A stretch of 13,911 nucleotides of DNA from an uncultured Aliterella sp. (GTDB lineage: Bacteria; Cyanobacteriota; Cyanobacteriia; Cyanobacteriales; Chroococcidiopsidaceae), in NCBI GenBank assembly GCA_905479905.1, contig CAJQOK010000570.1:1-13911 (forward strand). Reading direction: 5' to 3'. The translations under genes were made by a program, and so were the position numbers. The notes under the pieces are model-generated. The model was not told the origin of the DNA and ran no database searches. It saw only the letters and a program-made list of their open reading frames with translations. Each line of letters opens with the position of its first letter. Position 1 is the stretch's first letter. Below, piece after piece: positions 6,972 through 11,561 of the stretch.

Positions 6972-7560
6972 ATGAACGAGCAAAACAATCTGAAAGTGCC
7001 TACTATTGTCGAGAAAATTTTGTCTGACACCTTAGTAATAGGGTTCCAAATGGCATCTGAACTGTTAGCAGGTTCGTTGCTGAGAACTTTAGCTGCAAGT
7101 AAACCCAGTGGTAATTTATTAGAACTTGGTGCTGGTACGGGTGTTTCTACAGCTTGGCTACTTGACGGCATGGATAAAGATTCACGGCTTGTTTCAGTGG
7201 AAAATGACTGTACCGTAGCTTCTATTGCTCAAAAATATTTAGGGCAATGGCGATCGCCTCACTTTTCGAGTAGAAGATGCTGAAGCTTTTGTTGAAACTC
7301 TATATAAGAGTAGTCATCAAAAATTCGACTTAGTTTTTGCCGATACATGGGCAGGAAAATATACTCACCTTGATGAGGTATTGCACATTTTGAAGCCAGG
7401 GGGTTTTTATGTAATAGATGATATGTTACCTCAGACAAACTGGCTAGAAGATCATGAACCCAAAGCTATGTCACTCGTTTCACAATTGGATAGCAGGCAC
7501 GATTTGACTATTACAAAACTCAATTGGGCAAGTGGCATTATTATTGCAACAAAACTGTAA
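6972..7560 (+). pseudogene. Class I SAM-dependent methyltransferase, interrupted by one frameshift
   Basis: Two out-of-phase frames together encode about 195 residues of a Rossmann-fold methyltransferase. The first, from ATG 6972, holds motif I, NLLELGAGTGVSTAWLLDGM (about 48-67), and the motif II acidic strand RLVSVEND, and then stops at 7283. The second, read one base later, continues with LTFRVEDAEAFVETLYKSS, then FDLVFADTWAGKYTHLDEVL, LKPGGFYVIDDML and LNWASGIIIATKL, ending at TAA 7560. The order FADxWxGKYxxLDEVLxxLKPGG is that of small-molecule O-methyltransferases. One extra base in or beside the HIP1 sequence GGCGATCGCC at 7249-7258 explains the break. The substrate is unknown. The SAM-decarboxylase-like gene begins 19 bases after the stop, so the two are likely a functional pair. 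It may be a true pseudogene or a base-call error. Confidence 0.8.
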
Positions 7561-7579
7561 TGACACCTTGAACAAAAAT

Positions 7580-7945
7580 ATGATTAAGAATCTTGCACCA
7601 GACATTTTTCGGCAGCGATTGCTGATTGAAAGTTTCTACACTATTGATATAAGTAGGGAGACTGTAGAGAAATATCTTCTTGATATTGCTGAAAATCTCA
7701 GCCTTCGGACATATGGTAAGCCTGTTATCTTCGCACCTACTTCAAGTATGGGTCAAGAGAAAAATGCAGGATACGATGCCTTTATTCCGCTTATTGACTC
7801 TGGCATCTCAGCCTACTTTTGGAGCAATGCTAAGTTTTTCTCGATTGTGATTTACACCTGCAAAGGTTTTGATGAGCAAGCAGCCATTGACTTCACACGA
7901 GAATACTTTGCCGTATCGAGTGAGATAGCCAGCGCCTCGTTCTAG
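7580..7945 (+). CDS. S-adenosylmethionine decarboxylase-like protein
   Basis: A 121-residue protein resembling bacterial SpeD-type pyruvoyl decarboxylases. After LLIESFYTIDISRETVEKYL come LRTYGKPVIFAPTSSMG, AGYDAFIPLIDSGISAYFW and FFSIVIYTCKGFDEQAAIDF. By motif alignment with SpeD (E-S-H-x-[ST]-I-H-T-W ... D-x-F-T-C-G), Asp73-Ser74 sits at the self-cleavage/pyruvoyl position and Cys94 at the active-site Cys. Tyr79 replaces the His used in processing of classical SpeD. It could therefore be an altered decarboxylase or a non-processed homologue; spermidine synthesis should not be assumed. ATG 7580 is preferred; an in-frame extension to 7532 would run inside the methyltransferase gene. The close pairing with a SAM-dependent methyltransferase suggests a short SAM-related biosynthetic pathway. 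Confidence 0.7.
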   Translation: MIKNLAPDIFRQRLLIESFYTIDISRETVEKYLLDIAENLSLRTYGKPVIFAPTSSMGQEKNAGYDAFIPLIDSGISAYFWSNAKFFSIVIYTCKGFDEQAAIDFTREYFAVSSEIASASF

Positions 7946-8112: not shown

Positions 8113-8135
8113 TATAGAACCCATTTGACATCTCT
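8113..8135 (+). repeat. Left terminal inverted repeat of the IS5 element
   Basis: It is identical in reverse complement to 11539-11561 over 23 bases, with core GAACCCATTTGACATCTCT. The transposase stop codon (8134-8136) overlaps its inner edge. Confidence 0.9.
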
Positions 8136-8416
8136 AAGAAGCTGCAAGCCTCTTGATCATTAACCTGACAAAGCAAAGGTTGAGCTTAGTGGTCGCACTT
8201 GCTAAGGTTCTCTCATGGTTCTTAACCAGAATCTTACAACGCTCCATCCAAGCATTGGAACGCTCAATCACCCACCGAGCAATAGCTGGAACAAATCCAG
8301 ACTTTCCTGTCACTGCCTTTTCTTGTCTAGATGGCTTGGTTGACAATTCAAACTTTATTTTCTTCATAATCTGTGGATATATCTTCTCTAACTCCTGTCT
8401 CAGATGCTCTGGGTGA
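8134..8416 (-). pseudogene. IS5 transposase orfB, C-terminal fragment
   Basis: The reverse strand, read from the 8-bp duplication at 8409-8416, gives HPEHLRQELEKIYPQ, then SGFVPAIARWVIERSNAWME and RCKILVKNHERTLAS, ending RLMIKRLAAS at 8134. RWVIERSNAWM...KNHERT is the C-terminal catalytic Glu region of IS5-type DDE transposases. It joins in frame to the fragment at 10919-11212 once the insert and one duplication copy are removed. It has no start of its own and is not expected to function. Confidence 0.9.
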
Positions 8417-8439
8417 GGCGTTGCGGAAAGAGTAATGAT

Positions 8440-9129
8440 TTAGACGGGAATAGGCACTGTTCCGAACCGCAGATAGTGCAACAATAATCGCACAGAACAT
8501 TTAATCATCTCTATCGACTTGGAATAACAAAGGGTTTTACGATGTAGCCGTGCTAAATAGTGCCGTAGCCGAGTGTTCTCCCCTTCTACCCGCGTCATGT
8601 AAGTCTTACTAACAATGTGTTGAGAGCCATCGATGAACTTGGAGTAAACCGCATACCCATCAGTGACATACCAAAAACTTTGCCAACACTTTACTACTAC
8701 CCAGAGCAATTGGAATGTCCCAGAACTGCGATCGCCAATTGTCCAAGCGATGATCCCAGGCTGCCAATGATTCACCGCAGTCCATATCCAGACTTTGTGG
8801 CGCTTATTGCCCACAAATGTCTGTAGTTCATCAAGATCTGTGATTTCTGGCTCCTCTTCTGTCTCTGGTGTATCTGGTAGCCGCGTTCCAGCTTCTCTTA
8901 CCCAACCCATTACTGTAGTGTGATGGATATCAGTTACCCGCTCAATGCCTCGCAGTCCCATGCCATTGAGGTACATTTTCATGCACAACTGCTTGACCTC
9001 ATCTGAGTACTGCCAGGGGCGATATGACTCCAGAAATTGATGACCACATTGCTTGCACTTGTAACTCTGCCTACCTTTACGCTGCCCGTTTTTAACTGTT
9101 TGATAGGAGTTGCAATTAGGACATTTCAT
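8440..9129 (-). CDS. IS1-family transposase
   Basis: A 229-residue transposase in a single frame; unlike E. coli IS1 it needs no insA/insB frameshift. The N-terminus is an InsA-type zinc finger with CPNC at 3-6 and CKQCGHQF at about 26-33. A helix-turn-helix region follows, MGLRGIERVTDIHHTTVMGW. The InsB-type catalytic half contains DLDELQTFVGNKRHKVWIWT, YVTDGYAVYSKF and RVEGENTRLRHYLARLHRKT, providing the Asp, Asp and Glu/His residues of the IS1 active site. The frame is intact and ends 23 bases from the element end, so the protein may be active. It would act on the GGCGTTGC ends of its own element. Confidence 0.93.
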   Translation of the reverse strand: MKCPNCNSYQTVKNGQRKGRQSYKCKQCGHQFLESYRPWQYSDEVKQLCMKMYLNGMGLRGIERVTDIHHTTVMGWVREAGTRLPDTPETEEEPEITDLDELQTFVGNKRHKVWIWTAVNHWQPGIIAWTIGDRSSGTFQLLWVVVKCWQSFWYVTDGYAVYSKFIDGSQHIVSKTYMTRVEGENTRLRHYLARLHRKTLCYSKSIEMIKCSVRLLLHYLRFGTVPIPV

Positions 9130-9148
9130 TTATCCATTCTAGCAAAAT

Positions 9149-9171
9149 ATCATTGCCGTTTCCGCAACGCC
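9149..9171 (-). repeat. Internal third copy of the IS1 end sequence
   Basis: Read on the reverse strand it starts GGCGTTGCGGAAACGGCAAT, identical to the left end for the first 13 bases and differing at three positions after that. It separates the transposase gene from the cargo genes. The cargo lipoprotein stop codon (9174-9176) is only two bases beyond it. Confidence 0.75.
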
Positions 9172-9173
9172 CA

Positions 9174-9863
9174 TTATGTAGTACAACGTCGCCATCCCCA
9201 TGACGCACTTACTTCCTGATTAGCACGATCTTCAGCCGTAGCGCCACCTATAGATTGGGAATAGTGGGCAATCCAAGCTGCATTTACAATTACATAGCAC
9301 TGATCGTTTGTATCCAACTGGTTAGCTGTTGCTAACTCGATTAGTGGTTTTCCAGAGTGTACTAAGGGGCGGTAAGTACATGGAGGTTGCTCTAAATTAG
9401 CTGACGTAGAATTAAGTAATATACAGCGATACTCTTTACCTGAACCCTCAGGAGGTATTCCTTTGTTGTCTACTTTTGCATAGAGGTAGACAATGACTCG
9501 AATTGGCACTTGTGAAGTTTTCAGCCATCCAAGTGTTGCTGAGTTTTGTGTGCTTAGGTGCCAGAGCATTGAAGTTGGGGGAGTATTTGTGCTACCACCA
9601 GCGGCTAACCAGTCGCGGTAGAATGGTTGTAACGACAACTCAGTAGGAGTAGCAACGATAAAGGATGGCGACGTATTAGGGGCAGCCAACTTCTCGTCTG
9701 GTAGATAAGGAGCAAGTGAGAGCCTAGCGTTTAAGACAACACCACGTTTGCCAGAGCTAGAGCGTTCAGTAGCGCACCCAGCACTAATAGCTAGACCGGT
9801 TACGAATAGACAAATGTGTCGTCTCCAGTTTCGCATTCGTACTTTATTTAGCGCTTCTCGCAT
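9174..9863 (-). CDS. Predicted lipoprotein, transposon cargo, function unknown
   Basis: The product has 229 residues from ATG 9863, or 220 from ATG 9836. It begins with basic residues (RNWRRH), then the hydrophobic stretch ICLFVTGLAISAGC, whose final Cys fits a signal-peptidase II lipobox, so a lipid-anchored exported protein is predicted. The mature part contains WLAAGGSTNTPPTSMLWHLS, VPIRVIVYLYAKVDNKGIPP, Cys in EYRCIL and EQPPCTYRP, and DQCYVIVNAAW; no known domain is recognised. The preceding cargo gene ends at 9848, so the first start overlaps it and the second lies 11 bases after it; translational coupling is likely. A longer upstream extension is open but runs through the neighbouring gene. 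The C-terminus stops two bases from the internal IS1 end, so it may be trimmed. Confidence 0.65.
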   Translation of the reverse strand: MREALNKVRMRNWRRHICLFVTGLAISAGCATERSSSGKRGVVLNARLSLAPYLPDEKLAAPNTSPSFIVATPTELSLQPFYRDWLAAGGSTNTPPTSMLWHLSTQNSATLGWLKTSQVPIRVIVYLYAKVDNKGIPPEGSGKEYRCILLNSTSANLEQPPCTYRPLVHSGKPLIELATANQLDTNDQCYVIVNAAWIAHYSQSIGGATAEDRANQEVSASWGWRRCTT

Positions 9864-10690
9864 TGGATTTCGTCGTCGTTCTGCTCGTAGGCTGCGGCTG
9901 AGAATTTCTGAACTCCGGTGCTGACCGTGCCAAACCCTTCGGTTCGATAGCGATACCAGTCTCCTGCCTCGCATTTTGCCACAGCGGTTCGGCGATAGCT
10001 TTGAACTCTACCGCTAGGAATTGAAACTGTTTGTGCTGCCAGAGTCGCTACTCGCTGCCAGCCATACCAACGTGAGCGATAAGTTTTAGCACTAATCGTG
10101 TTTGATACTAAGGGAAGAACCTTGCAGAACGACTCAATGCGCGTGTGGATCTCCTCAGAATAGGTGTTCGAGGCGTGTGGTGTATTTACCCGTAGTCCAC
10201 ACTGCCCATCCTTGGGGTAAGCCTTTAGGTAAGCGTCATTAGTTATCACCTTGTCATTACTCCCTACCGTACCCATGTAATCGTACGTGCCGCGTACGGA
10301 AATAGAGGTTGCCTCATCTGTCGCATTACTGGACATATTATCCGGCGCATTCTCAAACACTGTGTCTGCTTTATCCTCCGATACACTGTCTAGTGTTGAA
10401 TCTTCGGCTGCTGTTGCACGATCTGGGTAAGCCTTTGGGTAAGCGTCATTAGTTATCACCTTGTCATTACTCCCTACCGTACCCATGTAATCGTACGTGC
10501 CGCGTACGGAAATAGAGGTTGCCTCATCTGTCGCATTACTAGACACATTATCCGGCGCATTCTCAAACACTGTGTCTGCTTTGTCGTTCGACAATCTATC
10601 TAGCGCTGAATCTTCGACTGGTGCTGCATGAACTGTAGTAGTTAGGCTCAGTGTTAGAAATAGGAGTGATGCAGGTATCCCTCTTCGCAT
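9848..10690 (-). CDS. Secreted protein with 70-residue tandem repeat, transposon cargo
   Basis: A 280-residue protein preceded by a strong TAAGGAGA 7-8 bases before ATG 10690. Signal peptide about 1-22 (LLFLTLSLTTTVHA, cleavage after AHA-like VHA). Residues about 25-94 and 95-164 are two nearly identical 70-residue repeats (DKADTVFENAPDN, SSNATDEATSISVRGTYDYM, GTVGSNDKVITNDAY). The C-terminal domain, about 162-280, has four Cys (164, 189, 240, 277) and the motif RSRWYGWQRVATLA, suggesting two disulfides outside the cytoplasm. Cys-containing WYGW-type domains are, as I recall, found in small exoproteins of Gram-positive bacteria, but no function is known to me. It is the first gene of the two-gene cargo, read in the same direction as the transposase. 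Confidence 0.75.
   Translation of the reverse strand: MRRGIPASLLFLTLSLTTTVHAAPVEDSALDRLSNDKADTVFENAPDNVSSNATDEATSISVRGTYDYMGTVGSNDKVITNDAYPKAYPDRATAAEDSTLDSVSEDKADTVFENAPDNMSSNATDEATSISVRGTYDYMGTVGSNDKVITNDAYLKAYPKDGQCGLRVNTPHASNTYSEEIHTRIESFCKVLPLVSNTISAKTYRSRWYGWQRVATLAAQTVSIPSGRVQSYRRTAVAKCEAGDWYRYRTEGFGTVSTGVQKFSAAAYEQNDDEIQCEKR
10215..10634 (-). repeat. 210-bp tandem duplication inside the cargo gene
   Basis: Two adjoining 210-base units (about 10215-10424 and 10425-10634) keep the reading frame and encode the 70-residue protein repeats. The first 160 or so bases are almost identical; differences concentrate toward the end encoding EDSALDRLSND versus EDSTLDSVSED. Low divergence indicates recent duplication or ongoing homogenisation. 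Confidence 0.9.
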
Positions 10691-10897
10691 AGTTTCTTCT
10701 CCTTAGCAGTGTAACGCTTGAAGTTTTCCTATAATTACTTCACAGCTAAAGGGTAGAAAGTTCAACATTTATCTATATTTGTTTACAATCTGGTTTTCAT
10801 CTGCGAGTCAGACTTATAGCATTGCTGAATTAGTAATAAATTAATGCAGATGTGCAACTTTAAAGCTTGATTCTCTTATTGGCTTCTAATTGAAAAA

Positions 10898-10918
10898 CAT
10901 TACACTTTCAGCAACGCC
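10898..10918 (-). repeat. Right outer end of the IS1-related transposon
   Basis: On the reverse strand it reads GGCGTTGCTGAAAGTGTAAT, matching the left outer end at all but two positions, closer than the internal copy at 9149-9171. It is followed directly by the CTGGGTGA target duplication at 10919-10926. Confidence 0.85.
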
Positions 10919-11212
10919 CTGGGTGATAGCCACGATCTAACAAGATTGTGATTTTGGGAATGTTCACAGGTTTGGACTGGAAGTAGTCGATGTTGAGCGT
11001 CAACATCTCAATCAATCCCGCATCATCGGAGAGATTAGCGCTGGTACAGTGGGTAAAGAAAGGAAACCCCAATGTATCAACTGCTAAATGCCGTTTGATG
11101 CCATTAGTTGCTTTGTAGAAGCAAAACCCTTTAGATTTGACACTTGCATTACACGTGTTTTGTACGGCTTGAGAGTCAATGATAATTAACGTCGTCCACT
11201 TGGCTTTTTTTT
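10919..11212 (-). pseudogene. IS5 transposase orfB, N-terminal fragment
   Basis: Read in the -1 frame relative to orfA, from the A8 slippery run at 11205-11212: AKWTTLIIIDSQAVQNTCNA, then GIKRHLAVDTLGFPFFTHC, LSDDAGLIEMLTL and ITILLDRGYHP. IIDSQ and LLDRGY carry the two catalytic Asp of the DDE triad. The frame runs into the right copy of the target duplication, and the missing Glu half is at 8134-8416. No stop codon occurs before the junction. Confidence 0.9.
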
Positions 11213-11494
11213 GACTTGTTCTCGCACTTGCTCATGCAAGACGCTCATCAATTGTTCAATGGCTCCCGCTTCTCGCCACTGTTTATAGTGCCAGTAGACC
11301 GTTGAGTAAGGCGGCAGGTCTTTGGGTAAGTCTTCCCAATTGCACCCATTTTTCAGTTGGTAAAAGATGCCATCAATGATGTCTCGTCTTGTCCAGTTTG
11401 AGGGTCTTGTCCGCTTCTTCGGCGGTAAAACTTCCACCAATAACGGTTCGAGAACTTCCCATTCTGCGTCAGTTAAGCTGCTTGAGTATGGCAT
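11186..11494 (-). CDS. IS5-family transposase orfA
   Basis: 102 residues, MPYSSSLTDAEWEVLEPLLV, then RDIIDGIFYQLKNGCNWEDL and PPYSTVYWHYKQWREAGAIE, the N-terminal DNA-binding domain of IS5 (IS427-group) transposases. An in-frame extension to 11518 is possible. The gene ends QVKKKPSGRR with stop at 11186-11188. A run of eight A at 11205-11212, just before the end, allows -1 slippage into orfB, the usual way these elements make full-length transposase. The frame itself is intact, but the fusion product is lost because orfB is split. Confidence 0.9.
   Translation of the reverse strand: MPYSSSLTDAEWEVLEPLLVEVLPPKKRTRPSNWTRRDIIDGIFYQLKNGCNWEDLPKDLPPYSTVYWHYKQWREAGAIEQLMSVLHEQVREQVKKKPSGRR
11205..11212 (-). 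promoter_or_regulatory. Probable programmed -1 frameshift site (A8) in the IS5 transposase
   Basis: Eight consecutive A on the reverse strand (T on the plus strand). OrfA reads GTC AAA AAA AAG; stepping back one base gives GCC AAG TGG, the orfB frame, which stays open for the whole fragment. Slippery A-runs of this kind are established for IS5-family elements. Confidence 0.75.
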
Positions 11495-11538
11495 CGTCAC
11501 TTCACTAGAGAGTAACATGACCTTACTTCATCCCAGTA

Positions 11539-11561
11539 AGAGATGTCAAATGGGTTCTATA
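11539..11561 (-). repeat. Right terminal inverted repeat of the IS5 element
   Basis: Exact 23-base reverse complement of 8113-8135. It ends 30 bases before the antitoxin start codon. Confidence 0.9.

Follow-up and report, generated by a model that had tools for sequence, protein, structure and literature searches.

Tn9 is a composite transposon of the IS1 family, and Nezha is a MITE known from cyanobacteria. In its published description, Tn6645 from Moraxella osloensis is an IS1-family composite with ISAba3-like arms and 8-bp duplications (PMC6382973). The TIME-COMPs carry a MITE at each end and are described as being mobilised in trans by a Tn3-family transposase (PMC13367494), and integrons flanked by MITEs at both ends are reported from Acinetobacter (PMC10969869). 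Additionally, the term transporter IS (tIS) is used in one source for IS derivatives with passenger genes (PMC9330008), and an ISL3-type MITE with 8-nt duplications is reported from Microcystis (PMC11448079). Composites of the IS-IS and of the MITE-MITE kind are already known; our literature search found no IS1-MITE hybrid composite.

We analysed a stretch of 13,911 bp, in the following called the window, in which positions 8417-10918 form a unit of 2,502 bp. This unit is likely to be a composite transposon, having a complete IS1 on the left, an operon of two genes for exported proteins in the middle and an IS1-type MITE of 101 bp on the right. With Tn6645, as described, it shares an IS1-family arm, cargo between the arms and 8-bp duplications around the whole, but both arms of Tn6645 are ISs whereas one arm of the window unit is a non-coding MITE. 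The TIME-COMPs and the Acinetobacter integrons, in the accounts cited above, are similar in that a non-coding miniature element gives the outer end around passenger genes; the window unit differs in its other arm, where a complete IS1-family IS brings its own full-length transposase. A tIS as defined above also has a single transposase gene, passenger genes and two outer ends, and the window unit differs from it in that an inner IS, complete at both ends, and a separate MITE can be recognised. The anatomy is better described as a composite of one full IS and one MITE than as a transporter IS. Like Nezha and the Microcystis MITE in its published account, the MITE of the window is a short non-coding element with terminal repeats, and the Microcystis MITE also has 8-nt duplications; unlike them it has IS1-type tips and appears to serve as an arm of a gene-carrying unit.

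The unit is bordered on both sides by an exact 8-bp duplication, CTGGGTGA, with the left copy at 8409-8416, directly left of 8417, and the right copy at 10919-10926, directly right of 10918. This octamer is absent from the rest of the plus strand of the window, and by arithmetic (4^-8) a random match at all eight positions has p ~1.5e-5. The outer ends of the unit agree at 19 of 21 bases, and the left end agrees with the inner IS1 end at 18 of 21. Both the outer ends and the identical flanks had been put forward in the original prediction and were recovered at the same positions. When scored for an 8-bp duplication, the whole unit reaches 8/8, the IS1 core alone 3/8 and the MITE alone 1/8. Since neither the IS1 core nor the right-hand piece has a duplication of its own, the whole block was probably mobilised.

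The target of the insertion is an IS5-family element on the minus strand (about 8113-11561, bounds taken from the terminal repeats), and its second frame is interrupted by the unit. Once 2,510 bp, corresponding to the unit and one octamer, are removed, this IS5-type frame is continuous across the junction. The joined protein of 183 residues has homologues running uninterrupted through the junction with up to 85% identity over 183/183 residues (for example in the genomes G009 and G001), and some match was found in 19/19 family genomes, many of these being short, broken or distant. The genome of the window itself gives a match in two separate pieces, one covering residues 66-183 (8137-8490) and one covering residues 1-95 (10911-11195); the aligner stretched each of them slightly into the unit. 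The continuous IS5 frame and the uninterrupted relatives support an empty site. Together with the duplication of the unit at 8/8 against 3/8 for the core, they are good evidence that the 2,502 bp transposed as a single unit with an 8-bp duplication, as had been proposed.

Two further frames lie beside the IS5 element. One (6972-7283) resembles part of a methyltransferase, the match being weak and below the cut-offs, and the other (7532-7945) is S-adenosylmethionine decarboxylase-like (26.5 bits, cut-off 25). Both are possibly decayed genes.

The left arm is an IS1-family core of 755 bp (8417-9171, minus strand) with its outer end at 8417-8437 and its inner end at 9151-9171. It contains a full-length IS1 transposase of 229 aa (8440-9129, minus strand), which matches the profiles NCBIfam transpos_IS1 (NF033558; 244 bits, cut-off 100) and PF03400 (86.6 bits, cut-off 24.1) and is 88% identical over 229/229 aa to a multi-copy IS1 of the genome G010. 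Thus, the IS1 transposase and the two genes that the original prediction placed inside the unit are present, the genes as two ORFs. An IS1 is expected to have a size of about 0.75 kb and terminal inverted repeats of about 23 bp, and in the window core 20/23 terminal bases are complementary. Full-length cores with 76-82% identity to it were found in four other family genomes; cores of relatives measure ~756 bp, and the window core is complete with both ends present. At the inner end (9171), base 17 is C where T is found in 30/32 of the core ends compared (counted by eye), and this may or may not weaken that end.

An IS1 inserted alone should also have its own 8-bp duplication, which the window core does not have. 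This is expected for the arm of a composite, and the transposase and the ends still place the core in the IS1 family. We compared 16 complete cores from 14 fetched regions, which were picked by identity and represent a part of all core places (5 further regions had no complete core). Of these, 10/16 are directly flanked by a perfect 8-bp duplication. As the remaining 6/16 are also without a perfect one, the missing duplication of the window core is not decisive alone. No second composite with matching duplications was found in the 19 fetched regions, and the unit is known as one copy in a draft genome that is 65% complete and consists of 593 contigs.

In G010 (contig C2), two IS1 copies in opposite orientation were observed in one region (L071, 8780-9535 and 12278-13033). 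Their 8-bp duplications, TAGTTTTC and GAAAACTA, are reverse complements of each other, which suggests an inverted target duplication or a rearrangement.

The right arm is an IS1-type MITE of 101 bp (10818-10918) with the inner left tip AGCATTGCTGAATTAGTAAT at 10818 and the outer right tip at 10898-10918. The left tip agrees with 17/20 consensus bases, compared with 12 for the runner-up in the stretch from 9172 to the end of the MITE and a maximum of 15 in 500 dinucleotide shuffles of 9172-10880. Allowing at most one mismatch, the 21-bp right tip was found at 28 places in 8/19 family genomes, the window included. Seven of these places are in the genome of the window (again with the window included) and 13 in G003, which also has the three exact copies found elsewhere. 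As a control the reversed tip was searched, giving 0 places in the 19 family genomes. The recurrence of this end had been named in the original prediction as a point on which it could fail, and the end does recur.

Flanks of the right tip were examined at 19/27 non-window places. An IS1-type left tip (at least 16/20) is found 99-135 bp upstream at 8/19 loci, and the octamers of these two-tip loci match at 8/8 in five cases and at 7/8, 6/8 and 3/8 in one case each. The other 11/19 loci are without a clear left tip, some of them resembling IS1 ends by eye. One locus (L050) has an 8/8 octamer in spite of having no clear left tip; octamers lacking the left tip carry little weight, since the script gave preference to left positions where the octamer matched. 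The right tip thus belongs to a population of IS1-type MITEs making 8-bp duplications, as the IS does, and free-standing MITEs with this right tip are common in the genus.

With a length of 101 bp, no transposase, a recurring right tip and relatives with 8-bp duplications, the right arm looks like an IS1-type MITE in everything except a duplication of its own. That lack is as expected if the move of the composite replaced its outer flank. A MITE of equal length is present in G009 (contig C110), with the perfect 8/8 duplication CAAAGCTT. The two are identical at 63/101 positions, and their similarity between the tips was equalled by 7/1,000 simple shuffles. The 101-bp sub-type is rare, as a stricter two-tip pattern matched only these two MITEs in 291 order genomes.

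At four other loci in the genome of the window (L059, L062, L064 and L066), arrays of the heptamers GGTAATG/GGTAATT precede the right ends of IS1-type MITEs. These arrays look as if the left tip of the MITE had seeded short tandem repeats.

Two cargo genes lie between the arms, both on the minus strand. Gene 1 (9848-10690) encodes a predicted secreted protein of 280 aa, whose C-terminal all-beta domain is conserved; its signal peptide was judged by eye. Gene 2 (9174-9863) encodes a predicted lipoprotein, which has 229 aa if the start is at 9863 (the mechanical ORF starts at 9974), and its lipobox was also judged by eye. We infer co-transcription of the pair. Gene 2 retains an intact stop codon, 3-5 bp past the inner IS1 end, and the MITE is upstream of gene 1; this means that both genes are enclosed whole.

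In the N-terminal half of gene 1 there is a tandem duplication of 210 bp (92%, 10215-10634). A metagenomic relative (P0005) was also seen to have a doubled region. Residues 161-280 are predicted to form the all-beta domain, with a pLDDT of 88-97 for this block and a mean of 64 for the whole model. Comparison of the fold gave only common beta-sandwich matches, and the name 'Ig-like', which had been considered, was dropped for 'all-beta' because the fold scores were insufficient for a narrower name. Among the matches listed, relatives amount to 28 proteins for gene 1 and 3 proteins for gene 2, the window's own being included in both numbers. The cargo had been called foreign-looking, and this is mildly so: its G+C content is 46.6%, against 42.3% and 40.8% in the window outside the IS5 element, with 46.0% in the IS1 core.

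Using tblastn, a relative of gene 2 was found directly behind gene 1 in a Scytonema MAG (L046), in Streptomyces (L040), in Streptoalloteichus (L041 and L042, two scaffolds of one strain) and in Longimycelium (L044). Gene 1 of Salinispora (L043) and of Austwickia (L045) is followed by an open frame whose start resembles that of a lipoprotein, but for which tblastn gave no match. The actinomycete gene-2 proteins all align at just 20-28%. As the genes are adjacent both in actinomycetes and in the Scytonema MAG, the pair is probably older than the transposon.

Among the matches listed for 386 genomes sampled phylum-wide and 291 order-wide, the secreted-protein family was found in the genome of the window only; the Scytonema MAG is an example of the carriers that these samples miss. 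The original prediction had called for a further locus where the cargo and the ends are the same and the duplication is another; none was among these matches. Neither was any match to the cargo found in the 5 other genus genomes and 13 other family genomes searched. The gene pair is patchy within cyanobacteria.

Some neighbours of the pair were noted in addition. Those in Salinispora (L043, 6903-7811) and Austwickia (L045, 4906-5661) are alike by eye, matched no Pfam family and may represent a third component of the module. An IS5-type fragment of the Scytonema MAG (L046, 5710-5991) directly adjoins a truncated copy of the secreted-protein gene.

The composite reading follows from one duplication around the whole, a recognisable IS5 target that is interrupted, and related elements with similar tips at both ends of the passenger DNA. 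A classical IS-IS composite has a full IS in each arm; here the transposase was found in the left arm only, and we therefore use the term IS-MITE composite, as a variant of the classical form. Against it speak two changes in the first four bases of the inner left tip of the MITE and the weak likeness of its middle to the G009 copy. It is unlikely that the unit is instead a transporter IS, in which an IS1-family element took up passenger genes before its true right end at 10918, the end at 9171 being duplicated or a relic. The definition of such elements, as given in the source (PMC9330008), does cover one transposase, two genes inside two good outer ends and a duplication at the level of the unit, and the altered base 17 of the inner end would agree with it. 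By a requirement of our own, a transporter IS should be a single element without a related element at its end, and the window has a complete core like those of its relatives as well as a MITE-type left tip that makes the right end part of a 101-bp element, the length of the independent MITE in G009. The original prediction was correct in seeing an IS1-family element with two passengers; it had also assumed one IS1 bypassing its inner end in favour of an unexplained distant one, which is probably not the case since that distant end belongs to a separate MITE, as its outer tip.

Still less probable is a relic of an IS1-cargo-IS1 composite whose right IS1 was deleted down to the outer end. Tn6645, as described (PMC6382973), is a documented case of a composite having IS1-family arms and 8-bp duplications, and a 101-bp MITE could be an old deletion product, so that the relic and the MITE views shade together. 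However, tblastn with the transposase over the window found only the left IS1, and the presence of the MITE-type left tip and the many free-standing MITEs with the same right tip in the genus argue against a deletion at this locus. That the cargo is ordinary local DNA, with octamers arising by coincidence or by a misjoin, is very improbable. In its favour, the genome is a draft MAG of many contigs, but the perfect octamers exactly abut two IS1-type tips (the probability above being for the octamer alone), the interrupted gene is whole through the junction in relatives, and the cargo has no match in the genus and family genomes mentioned. Furthermore, two contigs have the same proteins on record; the longer one has 14,781 bases, and both may stem from one sample.

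For the IS-MITE composite, the donor genome would have had an IS1 copy directly after the operon's stop codon and a MITE upstream of gene 1; CATTATGT would have stood to the left of this IS1 and AGACTTAT to the right of this MITE. The IS1 transposase would have paired the far end of the IS with the far end of the MITE, the 21-bp tips of the two being near-identical. Everything between the paired ends would then have moved into the IS5-type transposase gene, 8 bp being duplicated. The ends, the duplication, the restored target frame, the MITE, the gene pair and the full-length transposase can be read from the DNA directly; judging from these, the window IS1's own transposase may well have moved the unit, accepting the tip of the MITE. 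A more tentative and rather doubtful extension is that IS1 and MITE made a conserved exported module self-mobile, and that with altered inner ends the outer pair is becoming preferred, turning a composite into a unit transposon.

If a MITE can act as the arm of a composite, one full IS landing close to one of many MITEs is enough to mobilise genes, and two IS copies are not required. Composite-transposon searches that look for two transposases would miss IS-MITE units. The unit would offer a travel route for an exported two-gene module that is patchy in actinomycetes and cyanobacteria. Under the doubtful extension given above, genomes rich in IS1-type MITEs would be primed in this respect, and any single IS1 landing near a MITE could mobilise the genes between them.
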